Shown: one piece after another, positions 8,293-47,356 of the stretch
Position numbering within the stretch: position 1 is the stretch's first letter
Layout of the letters: each line of letters opens with the position of its first letter
Assembly: GCF_014196455.1 (NCBI RefSeq)
Contig: NZ_JACIDS010000002.1
Span: 620,001-684,000, forward strand
DNA from: Kaistia hirudinis
GTDB taxonomy: Bacteria > Pseudomonadota > Alphaproteobacteria > Rhizobiales > Kaistiaceae
DNA: 64,000 nucleotides
Reading direction: 5' to 3'
Notes under the pieces: model-generated
Told to the model about the DNA's origin: nothing
The model's database searches: none
What the model saw: only the letters and a program-made list of their open reading frames with translations
Translations under genes and position numbers: made by a program

Positions 8293-8823
8293 TCAGACGA
8301 AGCTGAAGCCGGGCGGATAGGCGTGGAAGCCGTCGAAATCCGCCTTGCCCAGCGGAACGCCGATCTGCCTCAGGATCGCGTAGGCGGTCACGAGGTGGAA
8401 GAAGAAGTTCGGCAGTGCATAGAGCGTGACGAAGGAGAGCGCGTCGGTCTCGACCATCGCCTCGCCGGCACGCTCGCGGGCCGGGCTTCCCGCCATGGCG
8501 TCGATCATCGCTGGATCGAGCGCGGCGAGCGCCGCGCTTCGCCGCGCGATCACGGCGCGGAGTTCCTCGAGCGTCACGGCCTTCTCGGCCAGGAGCGGCT
8601 CCAGAGACGGCGCGACCGGCAGGAGGGCACGGATGGCGAAACCGCTCGCGATCAGCACCTGATGTTTGAGATCGAACATGCCCCCGGTCAGCGACGCCGA
8701 CAGCAGCGCCTCTTCGCTCTGCTGCTCCGCCGCGGCAAAGGCGGCGAGGCGCACCAGCATGCGATCGAGCTGCCCGAGATAGCGCAGCAGCACGGGCACG
8801 GAGACGGCATGCAGGCCGGTCAT
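8293..8823 (-). CDS. DUF1993 family protein
   Basis: The start at 8823 gives 176 residues and has a strong Shine-Dalgarno, AAGGAGGGCAGCATG. The start MTGLHAVSVPVLLRYLGQLD and the end PLGKADFDGFHAYPPGFSFV are typical of DUF1993, a predicted helical-bundle family resembling DinB-like proteins. The function is unknown. It converges with ccrM with 10 bp between stops. It lies 10 bp downstream of a HAD gene on the same strand, so the two are probably one transcript. A longer frame upstream would overlap that gene and is not used. Confidence 0.85.
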   Translation of the reverse strand: MTGLHAVSVPVLLRYLGQLDRMLVRLAAFAAAEQQSEEALLSASLTGGMFDLKHQVLIASGFAIRALLPVAPSLEPLLAEKAVTLEELRAVIARRSAALAALDPAMIDAMAGSPARERAGEAMVETDALSFVTLYALPNFFFHLVTAYAILRQIGVPLGKADFDGFHAYPPGFSFV

Positions 8824-8833
8824 GCTGCCCTCC

Positions 8834-9448
8834 TTAGCCGAGCACGATGCCCCAGCGGGCGAGATCGGCGCGCATGGTCGCCGGATCGACGAAGCGCTCG
8901 GCATTCCACCCCGCCGCCCGTGCCGCCTCGATATTGGCCGGCATGTCGTCGAAGAAGAGCGTCGCGGCCGGATCGAGGCCGTGGCTCGCCACGTGATGCT
9001 CGTAGATCGCGATGTCCGGCTTGATCAGCTTGACCTCGGCGGACACCGTGATGCCGCGGAAACGCTGCAGATAGGGAAAGCGCGCCTGCGCCTCGGCAAA
9101 GGTATCGCCGGCAAAATTGGTCAGCGCCGTGACGTCGTGGCCCGTCTCGATCAGTTGCTCGAGGATCGTCACCGTCTCGTCGATCGGACCGGGCACCATC
9201 TCGTGCCAATGGCGGCGCCAGGCGCGGATATTGTCCTCGTAATGCGGAAATTCCGCGATCACGTGGGCTTCGGCATCTTCCCAGGACCGTCCGCGATCCT
9301 GCTCGAGGTTCCAGGCGTGGATGTCGACATCGTCGAAGAAGCGCTGGCGCGCCGCCGCGTCAGGAATGATGCGCCCATAGACGATCTCCGGATCCCAGCG
9401 GATCAGGACGTTGCCGATGTCGAAGACGATGTGGCGGATCTCGGTCAT
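8834..9448 (-). CDS. HAD-superfamily hydrolase (haloacid dehalogenase or phosphatase type)
   Basis: The protein has 204 residues from the ATG at 9448. Motif I is VFDIGNVLIRWDP, in which the second conserved Asp of the usual DxD is replaced (D-I-G-N-V), as in many YihX/FMN phosphatase-like members. Motif II is LTNF, the lysine of motif III is in KLIKPDIAIYEHH, and motif IV is FFDDMPANIEAARAAGWNAE. It probably acts on a small phosphorylated metabolite; the substrate is unknown. The gene is followed closely by DUF1993 and is divergent from the cysteine-rich secreted protein, with 288 bp between them. Confidence 0.9.
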   Translation of the reverse strand: MTEIRHIVFDIGNVLIRWDPEIVYGRIIPDAAARQRFFDDVDIHAWNLEQDRGRSWEDAEAHVIAEFPHYEDNIRAWRRHWHEMVPGPIDETVTILEQLIETGHDVTALTNFAGDTFAEAQARFPYLQRFRGITVSAEVKLIKPDIAIYEHHVASHGLDPAATLFFDDMPANIEAARAAGWNAERFVDPATMRADLARWGIVLG

Positions 9449-9736
9449 GGGAGGCCTTCCGGAGCGTTCGAGCAGAGGCATGGTTCTGGCGGCATTCGCG
9501 CCGGGGGACAAGCCTCCCGCGCTCGGTATCACCCGTGTCGGACGCATTTGTGAACCCAAGCTGAACATCGATGTGACCCGCATTACTGCGGGCCGCCGCC
9601 GCGAATCCGACACTCCGCTCCGATCGGGACAAGGGCCCGGTCCAGCAAGGCCGCTGTACGGCCTCGCGCTCGCCGAGACATGCGGCCCGGTGCTGGATGG
9701 GCTGAGACGACAGGCGCCGATGTGGAGGATTGAAGG
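9449..9736. other. Divergent intergenic region
   Basis: This 288-bp gap separates a leftward HAD gene from the rightward cysteine-rich protein gene and should hold both promoters. I see no clear sigma-70 pair, palindrome, riboswitch or tRNA in it. A GGAGG at about 9723-9727 serves the rightward gene. Confidence 0.4.
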
Positions 9737-12505
9737 ATGCCAAAGGCACTGAGGGCGGCCTGGCGGCCGCAAGAACCATCATCGGGGCCATGGGGGCGCT
9801 GGCGGAGCGCCCTGCTGGGGATCGCGCTGGGCGGGGCGGCGCTGCTGGTCACGCCCGCGCTAGCCCAGCAGGCGATCGTCGGTCCCGAGGATATCGTCGC
9901 GACCGGCCTCTCCGGCCTCGGCGACGGTCCGGCGCCGGCAGGCGCCGACCCGCTCGATTACAAATTCTTCCAGCCGAACGGCCCTTCGGCGAGGGTCATC
10001 GACGTTGCGTGGCTGGGTGCGCCGGGCACGCTCTCGCGCGTCTCGAAGCCGTTTACGGTCACGGCGGCCGAAGTCGGACAGGTGTTCGGCGTCGCACTCG
10101 ACGATGCCGAGGCGCCCAACATCTATCTGGCCGCGACGGCCGCCTATGGCCTCTCGATCGGCGTCGCCGATCCGGCCGGCGGCATCCAGCGCTTGCACCA
10201 GGGGGCGCCCGGCGCGAGCTTCCTGCCGGGCATGTTCGGTCCGCCGAGCGCGGGCGGTGGCCCGGGCTCGGTCTGGCGGGTCGACGGACGCACCGGCGCC
10301 GTCAACCTCTTCGCGACCATCGGCTCCGGCACGCCGGCGGCGCTCGGTGCGCTCGCCTTCGATCCGAAGAGCCGACAGCTCTTCGTCGCCGACCGGTCGA
10401 CCGGCCTCATCCACCGGCTCGGCCTCGACGGCCGCGATCTCGGCAATTTCGACCACGGCGTCGAGGCCCGGCCCGCGGCCGGACTTCCCGATGCGCCGCT
10501 GACGCCGGTTTCGATCGACATCGCGAGCCCCGATTTCGACACGGAACAGCCGGCGAGCTGGGGTTTTGCCGATCCCGAGCGGCTGGTCTTCGCGCTCGCG
10601 GTGCGGGACGACCGTCTCTTCTATTCCGTCGCGGCCGGACCGGAGATCTGGTCGGTCGGCATCGCACCGGATGGCGCCTTCGCCGCCGATGCGCGCTTCG
10701 AGGTCGCCGTTCCCGCGCTCGCGCCCGGCATGGAGGTCTCCCAGATCGCCTTTGACGGCGAGGGCCGGCTCTATGCGGCAGAACGCGCGCAGCCGAGCGG
10801 AGCCTATGACTTCCGCGCGGTTGCGGCCGGTGGTGACAGCCGTGTGCTGCGCTTCCAGCCGAAACCGGCACCGGACGAGGCGCCCGGCTTCTGGCTCCCC
10901 GATCCCGAGCAATATGCGATCGGTCTCGCGCCGGACTTCAAGAACGCGAATGGCGGCGTGGTGCTCGGGCGCGGCTATGACGCCGAAGGGCGTATCCGCA
11001 CCGATGCCTGCCGGGCCACGGTCTGGTCGACCGGCGAGAGGCTGCTGGGCGAGGAGCCTTCGATCGATCCTATCGACGGACTGCAGGGCAATGATCCCTC
11101 GCTCGTCATGCCCGCCAACGCGCCGCCATTGGCGAGTTTCTTCGTCGATTATGACGATCTGCCCGGCGACGGAGAGGCTTCCGGCCATATGGGCTCGCTC
11201 GCCGTTCCGTTCTGCTCCGGCGCCGTCCGCGCCGAAGTGATGCCGCCGCCTCCGCCGGTGATCGTGAACTGCCCGGTCGGCACCTTCCTCGTCGGAGGCA
11301 CCTGCCTGCTGCCGCCGCGCTGCCCGCCCGGAACACGCTTCCGCGACGGCTATTGCGTCGTCATCGGCTGCCCGCAGGGCACGGTCCGTGTCAACGGCGC
11401 CTGCGTACCCCCGCCGCAGCTCTGCGAGCGCTGGGAGACGTTCCTGAATGGACGCTGCGTGCCCTGGGTCTGCCCCGGCGATCTCGTGCGCATGCCGAGC
11501 GGCTATTGCGGCTGCCCGCCGAACGAGATCTATCTGCGCGGCAAATGCGTGCCGCCGCCCGTCTGCCCGCCTGGTCTGGTCCAGACCCGCGACGGCCGCT
11601 GCCTGCCGCCGCCCTGTCCGCAGGGATGGCTCCGCGACCGCGCCGGCCAGTGCCTGCCGCCGCAATGCAAGCGTCCCTTCGTGCAGGATCGGAACGGCCG
11701 CTGCGTGTGCCCGCCTGATCTCGTCCGCAAGGGAGGGCAGTGCGTTCCCCCGCCGCGGCCTTGTCCGGAAGGCAAGATGCCCGACCAGAACGGTCGCTGC
11801 GTCTGCCCGCCGAACATGCTCGAGCGCAAGGGTCGCTGCGTGCCGCCGCCGGTTGTCCAGCCTTGTCCGGAAGGCAAGGTTCGCGATCGGAACGGCCGCT
11901 GCGTCTGCCCGCCGAACATGCTGGAGCGCAAGGGCCGCTGCGTGCCGCCGCCGGTTGTCCAGCCTTGCCCGGAAGGCAAGGTTCGCGACCAGAACGGTCG
12001 TTGCGTCTGCCCGCCGGACACGATCCAGCGCAAGGGTCGCTGCGTGCCGCCCCCGGTCGTCCAGCCTTGCGCTGACGGCAAGGTGCGTGACCGCAAGGGC
12101 CGCTGCGTCTGCCCACAGGGCGAGGTCAACATCAAGGGCGTCTGCCGCCCGCCGATCATGATCGACTGTGCGCCGGGTTCGGTGCTGAAGGGCGGCCAGT
12201 GCGTGCCGGTCCGTCCGGTGCCGCCCAAGTGCCAGCCGGGCGAGCGGCTGATCAACGGCAACTGCATGCCGCTGATCAATCCCGGCATCCTCTGCAAGAA
12301 GGGCTCGGTGCTGAAGGACGGACGCTGCGTGCCGATCCGGATCGTGCCGGTGGAGCCGCCCAAGCAGGTGGAGCCCCGGCAGCCGGTGCCTCAGCCTGAC
12401 CCGCAGCCCGACGACAACCCGCCGCCGGTCCTGCGCCAGCCGACCATCAAGATGATCTCGCCGCAGATCATGAAGGTCCTGCCGCAGACGGAGGCGCCGC
12501 AATAG
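9737..12505 (+). CDS. Large secreted protein: propeller-like N-terminal half and cysteine-rich tandem-repeat C-terminal half
   Basis: The protein has 922 residues. A long N-region is followed by a signal peptide that ends ALA-QQ near residue 44. Residues about 45-500 contain repeated G-x-V-W-R-V-D, LFVADRSTGLIHRL and LYAAERA strands, which suggests a beta-propeller. Residues 512-864 hold about 42 cysteines in modules of the form CP-G-x4-6-NGRCVCPP-x6-7-GRCVPPP. Four of these modules form an exact 102-bp tandem repeat. The last 50 residues are proline-rich. An even number of closely spaced cysteines in an exported protein suggests disulfide-bonded surface modules; nearby dsbA-like capacity exists at 21.6 kb. 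I do not recognise a named family. A Shine-Dalgarno GGAGG precedes the ATG. Confidence 0.8.
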   Translation: MPKALRAAWRPQEPSSGPWGRWRSALLGIALGGAALLVTPALAQQAIVGPEDIVATGLSGLGDGPAPAGADPLDYKFFQPNGPSARVIDVAWLGAPGTLSRVSKPFTVTAAEVGQVFGVALDDAEAPNIYLAATAAYGLSIGVADPAGGIQRLHQGAPGASFLPGMFGPPSAGGGPGSVWRVDGRTGAVNLFATIGSGTPAALGALAFDPKSRQLFVADRSTGLIHRLGLDGRDLGNFDHGVEARPAAGLPDAPLTPVSIDIASPDFDTEQPASWGFADPERLVFALAVRDDRLFYSVAAGPEIWSVGIAPDGAFAADARFEVAVPALAPGMEVSQIAFDGEGRLYAAERAQPSGAYDFRAVAAGGDSRVLRFQPKPAPDEAPGFWLPDPEQYAIGLAPDFKNANGGVVLGRGYDAEGRIRTDACRATVWSTGERLLGEEPSIDPIDGLQGNDPSLVMPANAPPLASFFVDYDDLPGDGEASGHMGSLAVPFCSGAVRAEVMPPPPPVIVNCPVGTFLVGGTCLLPPRCPPGTRFRDGYCVVIGCPQGTVRVNGACVPPPQLCERWETFLNGRCVPWVCPGDLVRMPSGYCGCPPNEIYLRGKCVPPPVCPPGLVQTRDGRCLPPPCPQGWLRDRAGQCLPPQCKRPFVQDRNGRCVCPPDLVRKGGQCVPPPRPCPEGKMPDQNGRCVCPPNMLERKGRCVPPPVVQPCPEGKVRDRNGRCVCPPNMLERKGRCVPPPVVQPCPEGKVRDQNGRCVCPPDTIQRKGRCVPPPVVQPCADGKVRDRKGRCVCPQGEVNIKGVCRPPIMIDCAPGSVLKGGQCVPVRPVPPKCQPGERLINGNCMPLINPGILCKKGSVLKDGRCVPIRIVPVEPPKQVEPRQPVPQPDPQPDDNPPPVLRQPTIKMISPQIMKVLPQTEAPQ
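11759..12166 (+). repeat. Four tandem 102-bp coding repeats (34 residues each)
   Basis: Units begin at 11759, 11861, 11963 and 12065, an exact 102-bp period. Each encodes P-C-P-E-G-K-x4-NGRCVCPP-x4-RKGRCVPPPVVQ. Units 1-3 are nearly identical in DNA, and unit 4 has diverged at its end. The near identity indicates recent duplication or gene conversion, and the copy number may vary between strains. Confidence 0.92.
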
Positions 12506-40296: not shown

Positions 40297-41709
40297 ATGG
40301 CGGACGATCCAGACGACGTGTTCAGCCGCGCGCATCACCATGCGCTGGCCTTTCGTCGCGGGCTCGACGACGGTCCGCAGCGGCCGACGGCCGATTATCG
40401 CGTGATGCTCGACCGGTTCGCGCAGGCGCTGCCGGACGCCGGCCAGCCGGGCCCGGCCGTCATCGACGACCTCATGGCTCGGATCCGACCGGGCCTTGCC
40501 GCGATGGTCGGCCGGCGCTTCTTCGGCTGGGTGATGGGGGCTTCGCATCCCGTCGGCGTCGCCGCCGACTGGATGGTGAGCGCGTTCGGCCAGAACGCCG
40601 GCAACCATGTTGCCTCGCCGGCCAGCGCCGCGGCGGAGGCCGTCACCGCGGGATGGCTGCTCGACCTGCTCTCCTTGCCGCGCGAAGCGTCCGTCGGATT
40701 CGTGACCGGCGCCACGGTCGCCAATTTCGTCTGCCTCGCGGCCGCCCGCAAAGCGGTTCTTCGGACGGCGGACTGGGATGTGGAGGCGGATGGTCTGTTC
40801 GGCGCGCCGCCGATCACGGTCCTGATCGGCGCGGATGCACATGCGACGGTCTTCTCGGCGCTGCAATTCCTCGGCCTCGGCTCGAACCGCGTCCTGCGCC
40901 TGCCGACCGATGCGCAGGGTCGGATCCGGCCGGCCGACTTCGCGGAGCGGGCGAAGGCCATATCGGGCCCGTCGATCGTCATTCTCCAGGCCGGCCAGAT
41001 CAGTACGGGCGCGTTCGATCCCTTCGCGGAACTGATCCCGGCCGCGAAGGCGGCGGGGGCATGGGTCCATGTCGACGGCGCCTTTGGCCTGTGGGCGCGT
41101 GCCGCGCCGAATTACGCGGCGTTGACGCATGGCATCGAGGGCGCCGATTCATGGGCGACCGACGGCCACAAATGGTTGCAGACGCCCTATGACCTCGGCT
41201 TCGCCATCGTCCGCGACGCGGAGGCGCATCGGCGCGCCATGACCATCGCGGCGAGCTATCTGCCGGCGGTCGCCGAGAGTGAGCGCGATCCGTCGCATTA
41301 TGTTCCGGAGCTGTCCCGGCGCGCCCGCGGCCTTCCGGCCTATGCGATGATCCGCCATCTCGGACGCAAGGGCATCGCCGATATGGTCGAGCGCCATTGC
41401 CGCCTCGCGGCGCGCCTTGCCGATCGGCTGCGGCAGGAGGAGGGCATCGCGATCGTCAATGACGTCGTGCTTAACCAGGTCGCCGTCCGCTTCGGCGCGG
41501 GGCTGGCCGACGAAACCGCCGACGAACTGACCCGGCGCACGATCGCGGCGCTCCAGGCCGGCGGCGTTGCCTTCGCCGGCGGCGCGCAGTGGCGCGGCCG
41601 CTGGATCATGCGCCTCTCCGTCATTTCCTTCCCGACCACGGAAGCCGATATCGATCGGGCGGCCGATGCGATCATCGCCGCGTGGAGACCCATCCGCGAC
41701 GCCGCTTGA
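40297..41709 (+). CDS. PLP-dependent group II decarboxylase-like protein
   Basis: The protein has 470 residues of the pyridoxal-dependent decarboxylase family (fold type I). The PLP lysine is about residue 292 in ATDGHKWLQTPYD, and the cofactor aspartate is in WVHVDGAFGLWARAA. GWVMGASHPVGVAADW and ASPASAAAEAVTAGWLLDL lie at the substrate side. Such proteins are often labelled aspartate or glutamate decarboxylase, aminotransferase or sphingosine-phosphate lyase relatives; the amino acid used here is not known. It lies downstream of the glyQ-divergent gap and just before an acuI-type gene (77 bp). Confidence 0.88.
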   Translation: MADDPDDVFSRAHHHALAFRRGLDDGPQRPTADYRVMLDRFAQALPDAGQPGPAVIDDLMARIRPGLAAMVGRRFFGWVMGASHPVGVAADWMVSAFGQNAGNHVASPASAAAEAVTAGWLLDLLSLPREASVGFVTGATVANFVCLAAARKAVLRTADWDVEADGLFGAPPITVLIGADAHATVFSALQFLGLGSNRVLRLPTDAQGRIRPADFAERAKAISGPSIVILQAGQISTGAFDPFAELIPAAKAAGAWVHVDGAFGLWARAAPNYAALTHGIEGADSWATDGHKWLQTPYDLGFAIVRDAEAHRRAMTIAASYLPAVAESERDPSHYVPELSRRARGLPAYAMIRHLGRKGIADMVERHCRLAARLADRLRQEEGIAIVNDVVLNQVAVRFGAGLADETADELTRRTIAALQAGGVAFAGGAQWRGRWIMRLSVISFPTTEADIDRAADAIIAAWRPIRDAA

Positions 41710-41786: not shown

Positions 41787-42776
41787 ATGTCGCAGTTCAA
41801 GGCCGTGACGATCCGCAAGGACGAAGCCGGTGTGCAATCGGTGGGATTCGCAACGCTGGCGGATGAGGATCTGATGCCGGGCGACGTGACGGTCCGGGTC
41901 GAGCGCTCCACCGTGAATTACAAGGACGGGCTGGCGGTGACCGGACGCGCGCCGGTCGTGCGCCGCTTCCCGATGGTGCCGGGCGTCGACGGCGTTGGCG
42001 TGGTGGAAGAAAGCGCCAGCGACCTCTATGCCGTCGGCGACCGCGTGTTGATCAATGGCTGGGGCATCGGCGAGACGCATTGCGGCGCCTGGGCGGAGCG
42101 GGCGCGCTGGAAGAGCGAATGGCTGCTTCCCATGCCGGCGGGCTTCACGAGCGACGAGGCGATGGCGATCGGCACGGCGGGCTATACCGCGATGCTGGCG
42201 GTGCTCGCGCTGGAGCGGCACGACATCCGTCCATCCTCCGGTCCCGTGCTGGTCACCGGCGCGAGCGGTGGGCTCGGCTCGATCGCCGTCACCTTGCTCG
42301 CCGATCTCGGCTATCACGTCGTCGCCTCAACCGGGCGGCCGGAGCAGGCGGATTATCTGAAAGAACTCGGCGCGGCGGAGATCATCGACCGCGCGGAGCT
42401 TGCCGCGCCGGGCAAGGCGCTGTCGCGCGAGCGTTGGATCGGCGCCATCGATGCGGTCGGCGGCCAGACGCTCGCCAATGTCCTTTCCATGATCCGCTAT
42501 GACGGCGCGGTGGCGGCCTGCGGCAATGCCGGCGGGCTCGATCTGCCGGCGACGGTGGCCCCGTTCATTCTGCGCCGCATCACGCTCTATGGCATCGATT
42601 CGGTCTATGTGCCGAAAGCCATCCGCCTCGTCGCCTGGGACCGGCTCGATCGCGATCTCGACCGCGCGAAGCTCGCCCGCGCCACGACGCGCATCCCCTT
42701 CGCCTCGGTCATCGACGCCGCGCGGGAGATCGTCGAGGGCAAGGTGCGCGGACGGCTGGTGGTCGAGATCGGCTGA
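41787..42776 (+). CDS. acuI: Acryloyl-CoA reductase / YhdH-type quinone oxidoreductase (MDR family)
   Basis: The ATG at 41787 gives 329 residues. Zinc-free medium-chain reductase: the N-terminal STVNYKDGLAVTGRAPVVRRFPMVPGVDGVG and the NADPH loop VTGASGGLGSIAV are typical of the YhdH/AcuI group, which reduces acryloyl-CoA in propionate and DMSP routes. AcuI is inferred from the family; the substrate is not proved here. It follows the PLP decarboxylase gene and is convergent with the autotransporter gene. Confidence 0.88.
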   Translation: MSQFKAVTIRKDEAGVQSVGFATLADEDLMPGDVTVRVERSTVNYKDGLAVTGRAPVVRRFPMVPGVDGVGVVEESASDLYAVGDRVLINGWGIGETHCGAWAERARWKSEWLLPMPAGFTSDEAMAIGTAGYTAMLAVLALERHDIRPSSGPVLVTGASGGLGSIAVTLLADLGYHVVASTGRPEQADYLKELGAAEIIDRAELAAPGKALSRERWIGAIDAVGGQTLANVLSMIRYDGAVAACGNAGGLDLPATVAPFILRRITLYGIDSVYVPKAIRLVAWDRLDRDLDRAKLARATTRIPFASVIDAAREIVEGKVRGRLVVEIG

Positions 42777-42780
42777 TGGT

Positions 42781-42803
42781 TGGGCGGCGAACCGCGCCGC
42801 CCA
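42781..42803. terminator. Hairpin between convergent acuI and autotransporter genes
   Basis: TGGGCGGC at 42781-42788 pairs with GCCGCCCA at 42796-42803 around a 7-base loop. There is no T-tract on either strand, so it is only a candidate bidirectional end. Confidence 0.45.
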
Positions 42804-42827
42804 GCAAAGCCATCCGGGCCGTCGGTT

Positions 42828-45800
42828 CTAGAATTCGATTTTGAGGTTCGCGTTGAAGCCGTTCTGGGTCACCCCGTCGCCGAACTGGCCGGCATAGGCG
42901 ACGCCGAGCGTGGCGCTGGTGCCGAGCTTGACGTCGAGCCCCGCCTGGAGCACGGCGGCATTCTGGGCGATCGGGACACCCGCCACGGTGAAGGCATCCG
43001 AACCGGCGAATGTCTGCGTCGCGAGCGGCGTGATGTCGCCGAAGGCGTAGCGCCAGCCGATCTCGCCGCGCAGCGTCGCGTCGAGGGCGGCGAATGCCAC
43101 TTGTTGCGACAGGCGCAGGCCGAGCGTGGTGAAGCTCGTGCCCATGCTGGAGCTTGGGGCCGACAGCGCCGCCAACCCGCCATCCTCGGTGTAGCCGTCG
43201 TCATGCAGATGCACATAGGCGAGGTTGGCGAAGGGCTCGATCGCCGCGTAGGCCGTGTCGACCCGCCAGCCGAGTTCGCCGAAGGCCTGCATCGTGCCGG
43301 CGTCATAATGGGCCGCAAGCTGGTCGGCATAGCCGCTGAAGGCAATCGCGCGGTTCGTCTCGATGGCCTGCCACGTATAGGCGAGCCCGGTGCGGAGCGC
43401 GATCTCGCCCGCCGGAAGTCCGCCCCATGTGTTGCCGCCATAGACGCCGAGATGCCAGTTCTCGCTGTCCCCCGAGGCATTGCGATCGGTCAGGCTGAAA
43501 TTCGTATAGCTGTAGCCGCCGGCGAGGCCGACGCGCCAGCTGTCGCCGAGCGTGGTATCGGCGCCGATGAGCATCCCGCCGGTCGATCCCGAAATCTCGG
43601 CTGCATTGCCATCGCCGGCCATCTCGCCCCACGAGCCGAAGCCCGCGGTCCACACGGCGAGGCCGTCCGTAGCGGTCGGGGTCCCAAGGGTCGCGCCGCC
43701 GCTCGAGCCGTAGCTGGCGACCTGATCGGTCGATGCCGCGACGCCGCCTTGCGCGGCGCGGAGGCGTCCATCGAGCGCATTGCGGATCAGGCCGCTCTGC
43801 TCGACGAGCAGGCCTTTGGCCGAAGCGTTCACTTCGCCGGGAAGCTGCTCGAAGGCCCAGCGCGCATTCGCGGCATCGAGAACTACCAGTTGCCCGTTGA
43901 GACCGACCGCGGCCGAATCGAGCGCGTTCGCCGCCGCCGCCTGGTTGGCGGTCTCGGCCACCGAGGCGAAAGTCACGCCGCTCCGCACGATATCGAGCTG
44001 CAGGCCGCCGCTATCCGCTGTCGTGGCCACGTCGAGGAAGGGATACGGCGCATCGACCGAACCGAAGCTCGGCGCGATCACGTCGAAATTGCCGACGACG
44101 CCTCCTCCCGCGCTGATGAGCTGATAGCTGGCAAATCCCGGCGTCCATTCCGCCATCGGTGCGACATAGAGCGACGCGTTGTCGACGAAGACCTGGCCGC
44201 TCGCCGCGACGAGATCGCTGGTGCCGCCGGCGCCGAGCTCGGCGACATAATAGGATCCCGGCTGAAAGAAGACATTGCCCTGCACGGACGCCGTTCCGAT
44301 CGAATGGCCGGGCGAGACAGCGCCTCCGGTGGTCAGGTCTCCGGTGATCGTGCCGTTGCCGTTGAGTACACCCGAATTGGCGAAATTGCCGTCGACGGTC
44401 CCGTCATTGGAGAAGGTCCCCGCATTCGTCACATTACCGACGATCGTGCCGAGATTGGCGACGCTGGCGCCGGAAGCGACGGCGACCGGCGCCGTCACCG
44501 TCGCCTGGAACGTCGCCGAGCCGGCCGATATGGTGATCCCGGCGGGGAGCGTCATGTTGGCCTGGAAAGTGATTCCGCCGGGACCATCCAGGGTGAGCCC
44601 GCCTATGCCGGTAAACGCGCCGGCGAATGTCGCGTTGTCGGGCGTCGAAAACACCGAATCGCCGGCAAGATAGACCGGCAGGTTGGTGGCGAAGCTCGAC
44701 GGCATATCGAAATCGCCCACGGCCGAAAGATAGGGCGAGAATGAGATGCCGGCGCCCTGCGGATCGGTCGCGGAATAGCCGACAAACCCGCCGACGGCAT
44801 CGAAGACATAGGTGAAGGAGGCAAGGACATAGATGCCCGCATTCACGCCGCCGCCAGCAAGCCGGGCGAACTCCGGTGTCGCGGGCGGGTTGTCCGTCCC
44901 GCCCACGACGAAGCTGTAGCCGACGGCCTCGGTCCCGCCGAAATAGACGGACACCTGCGTCCCGTCGGGGGCGCAATTGAAAGACGCATTGCTGGGGCAT
45001 GGGACGGATTGCGCCGCGATGGAGCTGCCGAGGTCCGCCCACATATATTGCAGCCCGGTATCGACCAGAATCGACGAGGACGACGACGTTCCATTGACGA
45101 CCACCGAGCCCTGCGGCGTCTGCCAGTTGGGCGCCGTCGCGCCCGTGGTCGGCTGGAGCTGCACATAGGCATAGCCGGTTCCGGCATTCGCGCTCGTCAG
45201 GCCGGCCTGTATGCCGTCGGGCGTAATGACATAGCCCGAACGCACCGTGCCTTCGTCCATCCCGGTGATGTGGAGCAAGGGGTTGTTGTTCAGCGAGGGC
45301 AGATAGTCGGGTCCCCAGCCCGTGTCCGGGCGGCCGAACCCGATGCCAATCATATGGGCGCAGCCGGCGTCGGCCGAGGCGCAGGAAACGCCGCCAGGAT
45401 TTGCGGTATCGTAATATTCGGCCGCGACAAACACCGCAACCTGCGCCGTGGCCAGGTTGCCATGGCCATCATCGCTGTCGGGAAAGGTGACGGTCTGCGT
45501 CGTCCATGTACCGAGCGCGTAATTGCCACTGCTGCCATATTCGATCTTCTGCAGATTGGACGACTGCTGGAAGTCCGGCATCAGATATTGCGGCAGGACC
45601 ATCCCCTGCGAGCCCGTATCGAGCTGGTATTCGACCGCAGGCCCGCCGGCGACAGAAGCCATCACATAGAGCGCGGCCCCGGAGCTATCGAGGTTCGAAC
45701 TCTTGGAATAATTGATCGTGTAGGATGTCGTGTAGCTGTCGTAGAGGTTCCAGCTCGGCGTCTGCTGGGCCCATGCGTGCCCAACGTCGACCCCGGCAAA

Positions 45801-45848
45801 CAGGACCATAGCCAAGACTATCCGCGGAATAGTCATCGGTGCCCCCAT
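42828..45848 (-). CDS. Autotransporter with pepsin-like aspartic protease passenger
   Basis: The ATG at 45848 has AGGA upstream and gives 1006 residues; starts at 45836 or 45878 are possible. A signal peptide ends AWA-QQ near 27. Passenger residues 65-360 show the features of a two-lobed pepsin fold: DTGS at 77-80 in VEYQLDTGSQ, a flap-like IEYGSSGNYALGTW with Tyr104, a hydrophobic-hydrophobic-Gly MIGIGFG near 166-172, a second DTG at 263-265 in SILVDTGLQYMW, and a lobe-end YVFDAVGGFVGYSA near 347-360. Cysteines 156/163 and 284/292 could pair. Residues about 380-650 are a beta-helical stalk (NAGTFSNDGTVDGNFANSG, PGHSIGTASV). The C-terminal 280 residues form the outer-membrane barrel ending in Phe. 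It probably displays or releases a protease at the surface; activity is not proved. Confidence 0.88.
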   Translation of the reverse strand: MGAPMTIPRIVLAMVLFAGVDVGHAWAQQTPSWNLYDSYTTSYTINYSKSSNLDSSGAALYVMASVAGGPAVEYQLDTGSQGMVLPQYLMPDFQQSSNLQKIEYGSSGNYALGTWTTQTVTFPDSDDGHGNLATAQVAVFVAAEYYDTANPGGVSCASADAGCAHMIGIGFGRPDTGWGPDYLPSLNNNPLLHITGMDEGTVRSGYVITPDGIQAGLTSANAGTGYAYVQLQPTTGATAPNWQTPQGSVVVNGTSSSSSILVDTGLQYMWADLGSSIAAQSVPCPSNASFNCAPDGTQVSVYFGGTEAVGYSFVVGGTDNPPATPEFARLAGGGVNAGIYVLASFTYVFDAVGGFVGYSATDPQGAGISFSPYLSAVGDFDMPSSFATNLPVYLAGDSVFSTPDNATFAGAFTGIGGLTLDGPGGITFQANMTLPAGITISAGSATFQATVTAPVAVASGASVANLGTIVGNVTNAGTFSNDGTVDGNFANSGVLNGNGTITGDLTTGGAVSPGHSIGTASVQGNVFFQPGSYYVAELGAGGTSDLVAASGQVFVDNASLYVAPMAEWTPGFASYQLISAGGGVVGNFDVIAPSFGSVDAPYPFLDVATTADSGGLQLDIVRSGVTFASVAETANQAAAANALDSAAVGLNGQLVVLDAANARWAFEQLPGEVNASAKGLLVEQSGLIRNALDGRLRAAQGGVAASTDQVASYGSSGGATLGTPTATDGLAVWTAGFGSWGEMAGDGNAAEISGSTGGMLIGADTTLGDSWRVGLAGGYSYTNFSLTDRNASGDSENWHLGVYGGNTWGGLPAGEIALRTGLAYTWQAIETNRAIAFSGYADQLAAHYDAGTMQAFGELGWRVDTAYAAIEPFANLAYVHLHDDGYTEDGGLAALSAPSSSMGTSFTTLGLRLSQQVAFAALDATLRGEIGWRYAFGDITPLATQTFAGSDAFTVAGVPIAQNAAVLQAGLDVKLGTSATLGVAYAGQFGDGVTQNGFNANLKIEF

Positions 45849-46114
45849 CGCGCCATTCCTGCAGCCATCCTGCATCATCGGGACAGCGAAGCAAAGCCGG
45901 GCTGATGATGAGGCTGCAATAAATTCAGCCGATCGACCGGGAGAAGTCCGAAAAGTGCGATGAGATGCTTTGTCTTGTGGGGCGCGGGGCGCATAGGCCG
46001 TCGACGGACACAGCGCTTGGCGGGCCCGTCGGGGATGGAGTTGAGCGGCGACGGCTCAGGAAGCCTCCCTCGGGAGGGAATTCAGGGAAGACGGATCGCC
46101 GCGGCCGGCTCCGC

Positions 46115-47356
46115 TCAGCTCCAGCCGCCGCCATAGGTCTTGTAGAAGATGTGGTGGCCGATCTTCTGCATCTTCTTCATCGTGCGGGCCCAGCGCGGGC
46201 GCACATAGTTGGCGTGGTAGTGCGTCGACGAGCCGACCTTGGCGTTCCACCAATTGTCTTCATAGAGCACGCGATGCGCGAGCTCCTGCGCCTGGCGCCA
46301 TGACCCCATGTCGGTGATGCGGTCCTTGATCCCGTCGCAGGCGAAGGAAAACTGGCAGGCGTTACGCATGTCCTTGTTCTGGTAGACGACGCCGCAGATC
46401 GTGTTCGGATAGGCGGGGTTCTTCAGACGGTTGATCACGACCTGGGCGACGGCCAGCTGGCCCTGCGCCGGCTCGCCGCGCGCCTCGAAATAGATCGCCG
46501 TCGCCAGGCACTTCTGCTCGGTCTTCGAGCGTGCATTCGGCGGGATCGGGTTCATCACCCACCAATGATCCGGCTTGCCATCGGCGCCGATGCGGGACGG
46601 CCCGTTCATCAGCGCGCGGAACGGTGCTTCGAGCGTCGTCGTGTCGTCGGCATTGGCATAGGCCGAGACGGCATCGGCGGCATCGCCGCGCCCGCGCCGG
46701 CCCTTGCGCTCGACCGGCGCGATCGAGGCGAGCGTCACGGTCGGGTTGGCGATCTTCTTCTTCGGCAGCGGCGCGGCCTCGGCAACGGCCGTGTCCTTGC
46801 TCCCCTCGCGTGGCGCGAGCATTGCGGCGTTCGCCGCGTCGCCGGCGGCGAAGGCGATGTTCTCGCGCTTCTCGCCCAGCGTCCCGGCGGAGAATTTCAC
46901 ATAGGTCACCTTGGCCGGCTTGAGCGGCACGGTGATGTCGGCCTTGGCGATGCGGTTGACCTCAGGGGCGGTGAAGGGCGGCGCCGAGACCAGCCCCTCG
47001 CGCAATATGTCGAGCCGCGGCTCGATCAGGACGCCCTCGCTCCGCGCGAGCTTGGCGTCCTTCGCGTCGGAATCGCCGATATCGGCGACATAGGCTTCGC
47101 CCGCCGGCGCCGGAACGATCCGCGCCAGCCAACGTTCCTTGATTGGAAGCTCCTCGCCGAAGAGATCGGCGACGTCCTGGAACGCGACCTCGCGGGCGTC
47201 GAGCGGCAGCAGCAGGATCGTCAGGAAGAGGGAGAGGAGCACGGCGCGCGCCGGCGAGGGGCGCGGCTTGCGAGGGCGAAGGGCCAGGCGCGGATCCCGG
47301 CCTGCCGGTACGCCTGAGCGCGATGCGTAATAGGTTCGCTGCTCGCTCGGTAGCAT
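46115..47356 (-). CDS. Cell wall hydrolase of the SleB family
   Basis: The protein has 413 residues. A membrane anchor or signal segment is at about 37-55 (ARAVLLSLFLTILLLPLDA). A long low-complexity middle part follows. The catalytic SleB (Hydrolase_2) domain is about 270-413: SKTEQKCLATAIYFEARGEPAQGQLAVAQVVINRLKNPAYP with its glutamate, then CQFSFACDG and STHYHANYVRPRWA. It probably acts as a lytic transglycosylase on peptidoglycan in the periplasm. The gene is downstream of no clear operon partner. A short CCTCC-CTCG-GGAGG hairpin lies just past its stop near 46066-46079. Confidence 0.92.
   Translation of the reverse strand: MLPSEQRTYYASRSGVPAGRDPRLALRPRKPRPSPARAVLLSLFLTILLLPLDAREVAFQDVADLFGEELPIKERWLARIVPAPAGEAYVADIGDSDAKDAKLARSEGVLIEPRLDILREGLVSAPPFTAPEVNRIAKADITVPLKPAKVTYVKFSAGTLGEKRENIAFAAGDAANAAMLAPREGSKDTAVAEAAPLPKKKIANPTVTLASIAPVERKGRRGRGDAADAVSAYANADDTTTLEAPFRALMNGPSRIGADGKPDHWWVMNPIPPNARSKTEQKCLATAIYFEARGEPAQGQLAVAQVVINRLKNPAYPNTICGVVYQNKDMRNACQFSFACDGIKDRITDMGSWRQAQELAHRVLYEDNWWNAKVGSSTHYHANYVRPRWARTMKKMQKIGHHIFYKTYGGGWS

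Follow-up and report, generated by a model that had tools for sequence, protein, structure and literature searches.

Architecture of the autotransporter gene

The gene described here lies on the minus strand of a 64,000-nucleotide stretch of Kaistia hirudinis DNA (hereafter the window), within a genome of 5,259,388 bases. Its longest open reading frame, at 42828-45878, encodes 1016 amino acids and is used for residue numbering throughout. The start conserved with the orthologue from genome G015 is Met11 (45848) or Met15 (45836), and the frame of the orthologue begins at the equivalent of Met11. A preliminary description of the gene counted from Met11 (45848), so its residue numbers are ten lower, and its D77, Y104 and D263 correspond to D87, Y114 and D273 here. 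No promoter-like sites were found across 42700-46200. The features of the gene are as follows.

42828..45878, minus strand: whole gene, 1016 aa
45768..45836, minus strand: signal-peptide-like stretch, aa 15-37 (MTIPRIVLAMVLFAGVDVGHAWA), read by eye
44763..45767, minus strand: putative passenger protease domain, aa 38-372 (PF20729 34.1-35.0 bits, cut-off 33; profiles to PDB 4EHC)
45609..45620, minus strand: first predicted catalytic motif, D87-T-G-S90 (30-row alignment: D 30/30, T or S 30/30, G 30/30, S 30/30)
45525..45542, minus strand: flap-like segment, E113-Y114-G-S-S-G118 (Y114 in 29/30 rows and 17/17 autotransporters)
45333..45353, minus strand: first psi-loop-like motif, M176-I-G-I-G-F-G182 (G178 30/30; M, I, V or L before G178 in 30/30)
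45051..45062, minus strand: second predicted catalytic motif, D273-T-G-L276 (D 30/30, G 30/30, T or S 29/30)
44769..44849, minus strand: second-lobe end, aa 344-370 (GVNAGIYVLASFTYVFDAVGGFVGYSA) (N346, D360 and G364 each 30/30)
43659..44762, minus strand: repeat stalk or passenger-associated region, aa 373-740 (TIGR01414 covers 524-1016)
42831..43655, minus strand: outer-membrane beta-barrel, aa 742-1016, final residue Phe (PF03797 8.7e-62 over 742-995)

The sequence supports a layout of a signal-peptide-like start, a protease domain that carries a pair of D-T-G motifs and a flap tyrosine, a repeat stalk and a PF03797 barrel. The N-terminus has a hydrophobic start and, by eye, an AWA/Q-like site. 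The C-terminal outer-membrane barrel of the preliminary description was borne out by the Pfam scan, which placed the barrel typical of type Va autotransporters at aa 742-995. The stalk is probably a beta-helix; the passenger-associated repeat PATR (PF12951) was detected in 6 of 17 full-length relatives and was not found in the stalk of the window protein. Among the NCBIfam models, TIGR01414 matched aa 524-1016, and the EprS model matched 484-1014 below its cut-off (243.7 bits versus 1700).

Relatives and distribution

The gene is not a one-off. A first scan of the genome contigs with the single protein found no relative, and later searches identified 17 autotransporters of the same layout (group I) from 14 genomes with five family codes, all in long frames without internal stops and all with a PF03797 match (17/17). 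A further frame, L087, has the group-I layout with one in-frame stop. The family tally, own genome included, gave relatives in 8 of 28 genomes at E<=0.001. With a seven-row profile at E<=1e-5, own genome again included, matches were obtained in 19/397 genomes for the order, 8/385 for the class and 6/398 for the phylum, the three sets overlapping. The order search hit 28 places, 11 in frames of >1000 aa and 17 in frames of <600 aa. PF20729, the Pfam family discussed below, was found across the order in 16 of 297 genomes at 0.001, with four above the cut-off, and its control was positive in 1 of 14 genomes. Three of 72,556 plasmid records matched, and these are annotated as hypothetical or carry no annotation. 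Within the same genus, the G022 autotransporter has exactly the sequence of the Kaistia soli DSM 19436 autotransporter, and the G024 autotransporter is identical to one from a Bosea-labelled MAG. The genome of the window itself contains two solo relatives, C5 and C1, with signal-peptide-like starts by eye. In G758, two autotransporters lie in tandem approximately 280 bases apart (L082:5070-8399 and 8676-11993, plus strand), with passengers 32% identical.

Conservation was assessed on a sample of 30 sequences, comprising the window protein and 29 relatives: one protein from each of 11 of the 13 regions of the first set, 17 proteins from 15 regions, and L034. The solo proteins L024 and L029 are omitted, L030-L033 were excluded as duplicates, with the same proteins as L018, L021, L020 and L019, and L087 is represented only by the part before its stop. 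In the tree of this alignment, the 17 group-I autotransporters fell inside a 19-row set (99/99) together with L087 and L088. A single clade of the 17 appeared in 0% of 200 bootstrap trees and was not rejected by the AU test (p = 0.073), both with L087 labelled solo. The L088 protein (L088:5836-7005, plus strand, G1015) is solo and, by eye, begins like a lipoprotein, which may be a further means of anchoring the same domain.

Profile evidence for an aspartic protease domain

The preliminary description had proposed a two-lobed pepsin-type passenger and a Pfam profile search as a check. A Pfam scan of the domain alone gave PF20729, which describes an aspartyl peptidase-like domain in the PE_PGRS proteins of mycobacteria, above its cut-off of 33 (34.1 bits for the slice aa 1-372 and 35.0 bits for the mature-domain slice), in a partial match that spans profile positions 10-116 of 265. 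At E<=10, the Pfam scan of the window protein did not include the pepsin profile PF00026; a search of the genome with this profile gave no match, and its 14 controls likewise gave none. PF20729 was also not listed for the whole 1016-aa protein even at E<=10, so the match is visible only when the domain is scanned alone; whole-sequence scans recovered it at 0.001 in only 2 of the 17 autotransporters. The NCBIfam PecA equivalog (NF038019) gave a partial slice match of 30.3 bits, below its cut-off of 150. When the rows of the 30-row alignment were scanned singly at E<=1, PF20729 was found in 16 and Asp_protease_2 in 13.

A phmmer search of the PDB gave no match with the window protein alone, or with the passenger of group II (see below) alone. 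The profile of the 30-row alignment placed the PE_PGRS16 structure 4EHC at the top (3.9e-10), followed by tandem dimers of HIV protease, aspergillopepsin and BACE-1 at 0.003-0.09 (best 60 of 86 matches). On 4EHC, it gave one match around each D-[TS]-G, with 33.4 and 13.4 bits, that of the second lobe being weak (i-Evalue 0.27). A profile built from seven autotransporters only had 4EHC as its sole PDB match (4.7e-4), with a second-lobe match that was not significant (i-Evalue 31) and off the catalytic motif. Alignment of the two lobes of the 30-row profile with each other paired DTG with DTG at p 0.012-0.022, with an hhalign probability of only 2-4%. By these comparisons, the nearest characterised kin of the passenger are PecA and PE_PGRS16 rather than pepsin A1 proper. 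The proposed pepsin-type passenger with its two D-T-G halves is supported by the profile matches and by the conservation of the catalytic residues, and is revised as to its nearest characterised family.

Predicted catalytic residues and conservation

All motifs named in the preliminary description are present (DTGS 87-90, EYGSSG 113-118, MIGIGFG 176-182, DTG 273-275 and YVFD...VGYSA 357-370), and the alignments indicate that they are not there by chance. D87, G89, S90, D273, G275, N346, D360 and G364 are invariant in the 30 rows, and Y114 and W252 are each found in 29. In the 17 autotransporters, D87, D273 and Y114 are each kept in 17/17; D273 is followed by T in 13, by S in three and by I in one, the L080 autotransporter, in which the second motif reads D-I-G.

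Compared with the motifs of peptidase family A1, the window protein has the two D-[TS]-G motifs (D87-T-G and D273-T-G), the flap tyrosine (Y114, 29/30 rows, the flap being placed by sequence only) and the first-lobe hydrophobic-hydrophobic-Gly (M176-I-G). Two A1 motifs failed. A Ser or Thr follows the first D-x-G (Ser90), but the second is followed by Leu276; in the second lobe, aligned by distance to Phe-Asp, the place of hydrophobic-hydrophobic-Gly is taken by N346-A-G, and the rows read Asn-x-Gly (24) or Asn-x-Ser (6), with N in 30/30. We therefore rejected filing the passenger in A1. The position after the second D-x-G, equated with Thr218 of pepsin by motif alignment, is I, V, L or A in 30/30 rows. 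Since the abstract of PMC2761423 associates activity at neutral pH with the replacement of Thr218 by Asp, the "acid-type" activity of the preliminary description is doubtful and finds no support here.

The G015 orthologue is 86% identical over 1006 codons and 90% identical in the protease part. The dN/dS ratios between the window gene and this orthologue were 0.099 for the protease, 0.139 for the stalk and 0.146 for the barrel; of the three parts, the protease is thus the one under the strongest purifying selection. At the level of sequence, the earlier observation is confirmed and its interpretation is partly supported.

A second lineage of putative protease autotransporters

In genome G110, three putative aspartic protease genes lie in a row on one strand (L076:939-8566, minus strand).

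L076:7478-8566, minus strand: solo secreted-looking enzyme
L076:3989-7411, minus strand: group-I autotransporter
L076:939-3917, minus strand: group-II autotransporter

The two barrels are 91% identical, and blastp between the two passengers gave no match at E 0.01. The passenger of L076:939-3917 is 39-40% identical to the solo enzyme beside it and to the C1 paralogue in the genome of the window. It fitted best to DUF3443 (PF11925; 31.7 bits versus a cut-off of 25) and also passed PF00026 (22.4 bits versus 19.9; 20.9 in the whole protein), with PF20729 below the cut-off at 21.5 bits; the protein also matches PF03797. Two group-II autotransporters were seen, the other being L111 from G163, with 34.0 bits for PF20729 and a barrel match that ends at position 234 of 255.

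The nine-row alignment of group II includes L076:939-3917, which is absent from the 30-row alignment, and has two rows in common with the latter. PF20729 was detected at E<=0.1 in all nine members, and the profiles of groups I and II aligned over 277 columns covering both halves (hhalign 99.3%, 8.5e-21). Over the distinct rows of the two alignments, the first Asp is kept in 37/37 and the second in 36/37. The exception is a group-II solo protein of G071 (L107:1450-2367, plus strand; one of the nine rows), where G-T-G replaces the second D-T-G and the second catalytic Asp is gone. DUF3443, a family of unknown function, matches seven of the nine members at E<=0.1 (for example, L076:2832-3827), which, with the best match at 31.7 bits, suggests that it is a pepsin-type aspartic protease family. 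As judged by these profiles, different branches of one protease family precede near-identical barrels in G110. Domain exchange is the simplest reading of this arrangement.

Comparison with known systems

SPATEs (S6), the subtilisin-type NalP and SphB1 have serine proteases as passengers. The window protein shares with these and with EprS a PF03797 barrel, a stalk and, as predicted, an N-terminal protease; where they have a signal peptide, it has a signal-peptide-like start. EprS, whose NCBIfam model matches the stalk and barrel as noted above, differs in being named a serine protease in NCBIfam. APRc of Rickettsia is an aspartic protease but retropepsin-like, unlike the window passenger, and excerpts of the literature record that a role for it in autotransporter processing was once proposed and then disputed (PMC10414592, PMC4140852).

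With PecA (PE_PGRS35) and PE_PGRS16, the window protein has in common the PF20729 match of its domain slice and the D-T-G and D-[TS]-G motifs; the mycobacterial proteins, by contrast, have a PE domain and depend on type VII secretion. In excerpts of PMC6819658, PecA is a surface aspartic protease that requires D293 and cleaves itself and PE_PGRS proteins, and its location is contrasted with the generally cytoplasmic aspartic proteases of bacteria. The window protein would likewise be exposed at the surface. Bacterial pepsin homologues of family A1, from Shewanella and others, are described in PMC2761423 as intracellular and without signal peptides.

The preliminary description knew of no autotransporter that displays such an enzyme, and searches of open-licence literature agree: among the matches listed, no title or abstract start describes an autotransporter whose passenger is aspartic or pepsin-like, and these searches found no description of a pepsin-like enzyme paired with its own outer-membrane export pore. 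Proteins of this kind may already carry annotations in protein databases. If true, a pepsin-type passenger extends the protease autotransporters by a catalytic class and shows a route for displaying pepsin-type enzymes on Gram-negative bacteria. It becomes testable whether passage through an autotransporter pore leaves an aspartic protease able to fold and function, and the solo paralogues in the same genomes are a natural set for tracing the move of the enzyme family to the surface.

Proposed function and alternative explanations

The gene product is very probably a type Va autotransporter whose passenger is an aspartic endopeptidase domain of pepsin-type fold, belonging to the PecA/PE_PGRS16 group. 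To this explanation as a whole we assign a confidence of 0.75. With the passenger fold, activity, substrate and surface exposure presumed in it, the protein would be exported by Sec, its barrel inserted by the BAM machinery and its passenger secreted through the barrel to the outside. The two lobes would then fold into one cleft, in which D87 and D273 would activate water, and peptide bonds of extracellular or surface proteins would be cleaved.

An ordinary adhesin-type autotransporter with coincidental DTG motifs would fit the Pfam matches of the full-length protein, which comprise the barrel and two chance-level domains only. This explanation is barely conceivable and was rejected, as it is already contradicted by PF20729 above the cut-off, the 4EHC match at 3.9e-10 and the Asp pair in 30/30 rows. 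It is improbable, to a far lesser degree, that the passenger keeps the aspartic protease fold as a catalytically inactive surface binding module, as in some pepsin homologues, among which excerpts of PMC2761423 name a xylanase inhibitor. Such a module would be in line with the N-x-G or N-x-S in place of the second hydrophobic-hydrophobic-Gly, with L276 after the second DTG, with the D-I-G of L080 and with PE_PGRS16, for which no activity was seen according to excerpts of PMC6819658; on the other hand, both Asp residues and the flap Tyr are kept in 17/17 autotransporters, the protease dN/dS is 0.10, and the same excerpts record activity for PecA, to which PE_PGRS16 is homologous.

The task of an active enzyme is a matter of lower confidence. 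By analogy with PecA, a surface-located enzyme whose substrates are PecA itself and further surface proteins, the passenger may process or shed surface proteins, possibly including itself and other autotransporters; we hold this role tentatively. About as likely is nutrient proteolysis, in which the exported passenger would degrade environmental proteins and the barrel would serve as exporter only. The patchy distribution, the presence in this genome of two solo paralogues that look secreted, and the neighbourhoods speak for it: across the window and 16 further loci, no neighbour recurs at more than three of the 17; among the neighbour genes of these 17 loci, none indicates a substrate. However, fusion to a barrel means one enzyme per pore, which would suit a task at the surface better than bulk digestion. 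More speculatively, and rather unlikely in its full extent, the surface-processing role would extend to a Gram-negative type V counterpart of PecA, namely a family of aspartic proteases tethered to the outer membrane, where they mature or shed surface proteins. This family would have been assembled on two or more occasions, when different branches of a single family of solo secreted proteases were placed before autotransporter barrels, and would include the solo-autotransporter-autotransporter trio in one relative.

Genomic context

The window gene and its G015 orthologue have surroundings in common. Matches across genera also occur, from which we infer no function. Around the Bauldia copy L019 there are relatives of two genes from the neighbourhood of the G015 copy; they are 79% and 47% identical and differently arranged. 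In the window, the autotransporter has a pyridoxal-dependent decarboxylase gene nearby (40297-41709, plus strand), and a gene 40% identical to it lies beside an autotransporter in another family (L078:2183-3610, minus strand); this proximity may be due to chance.
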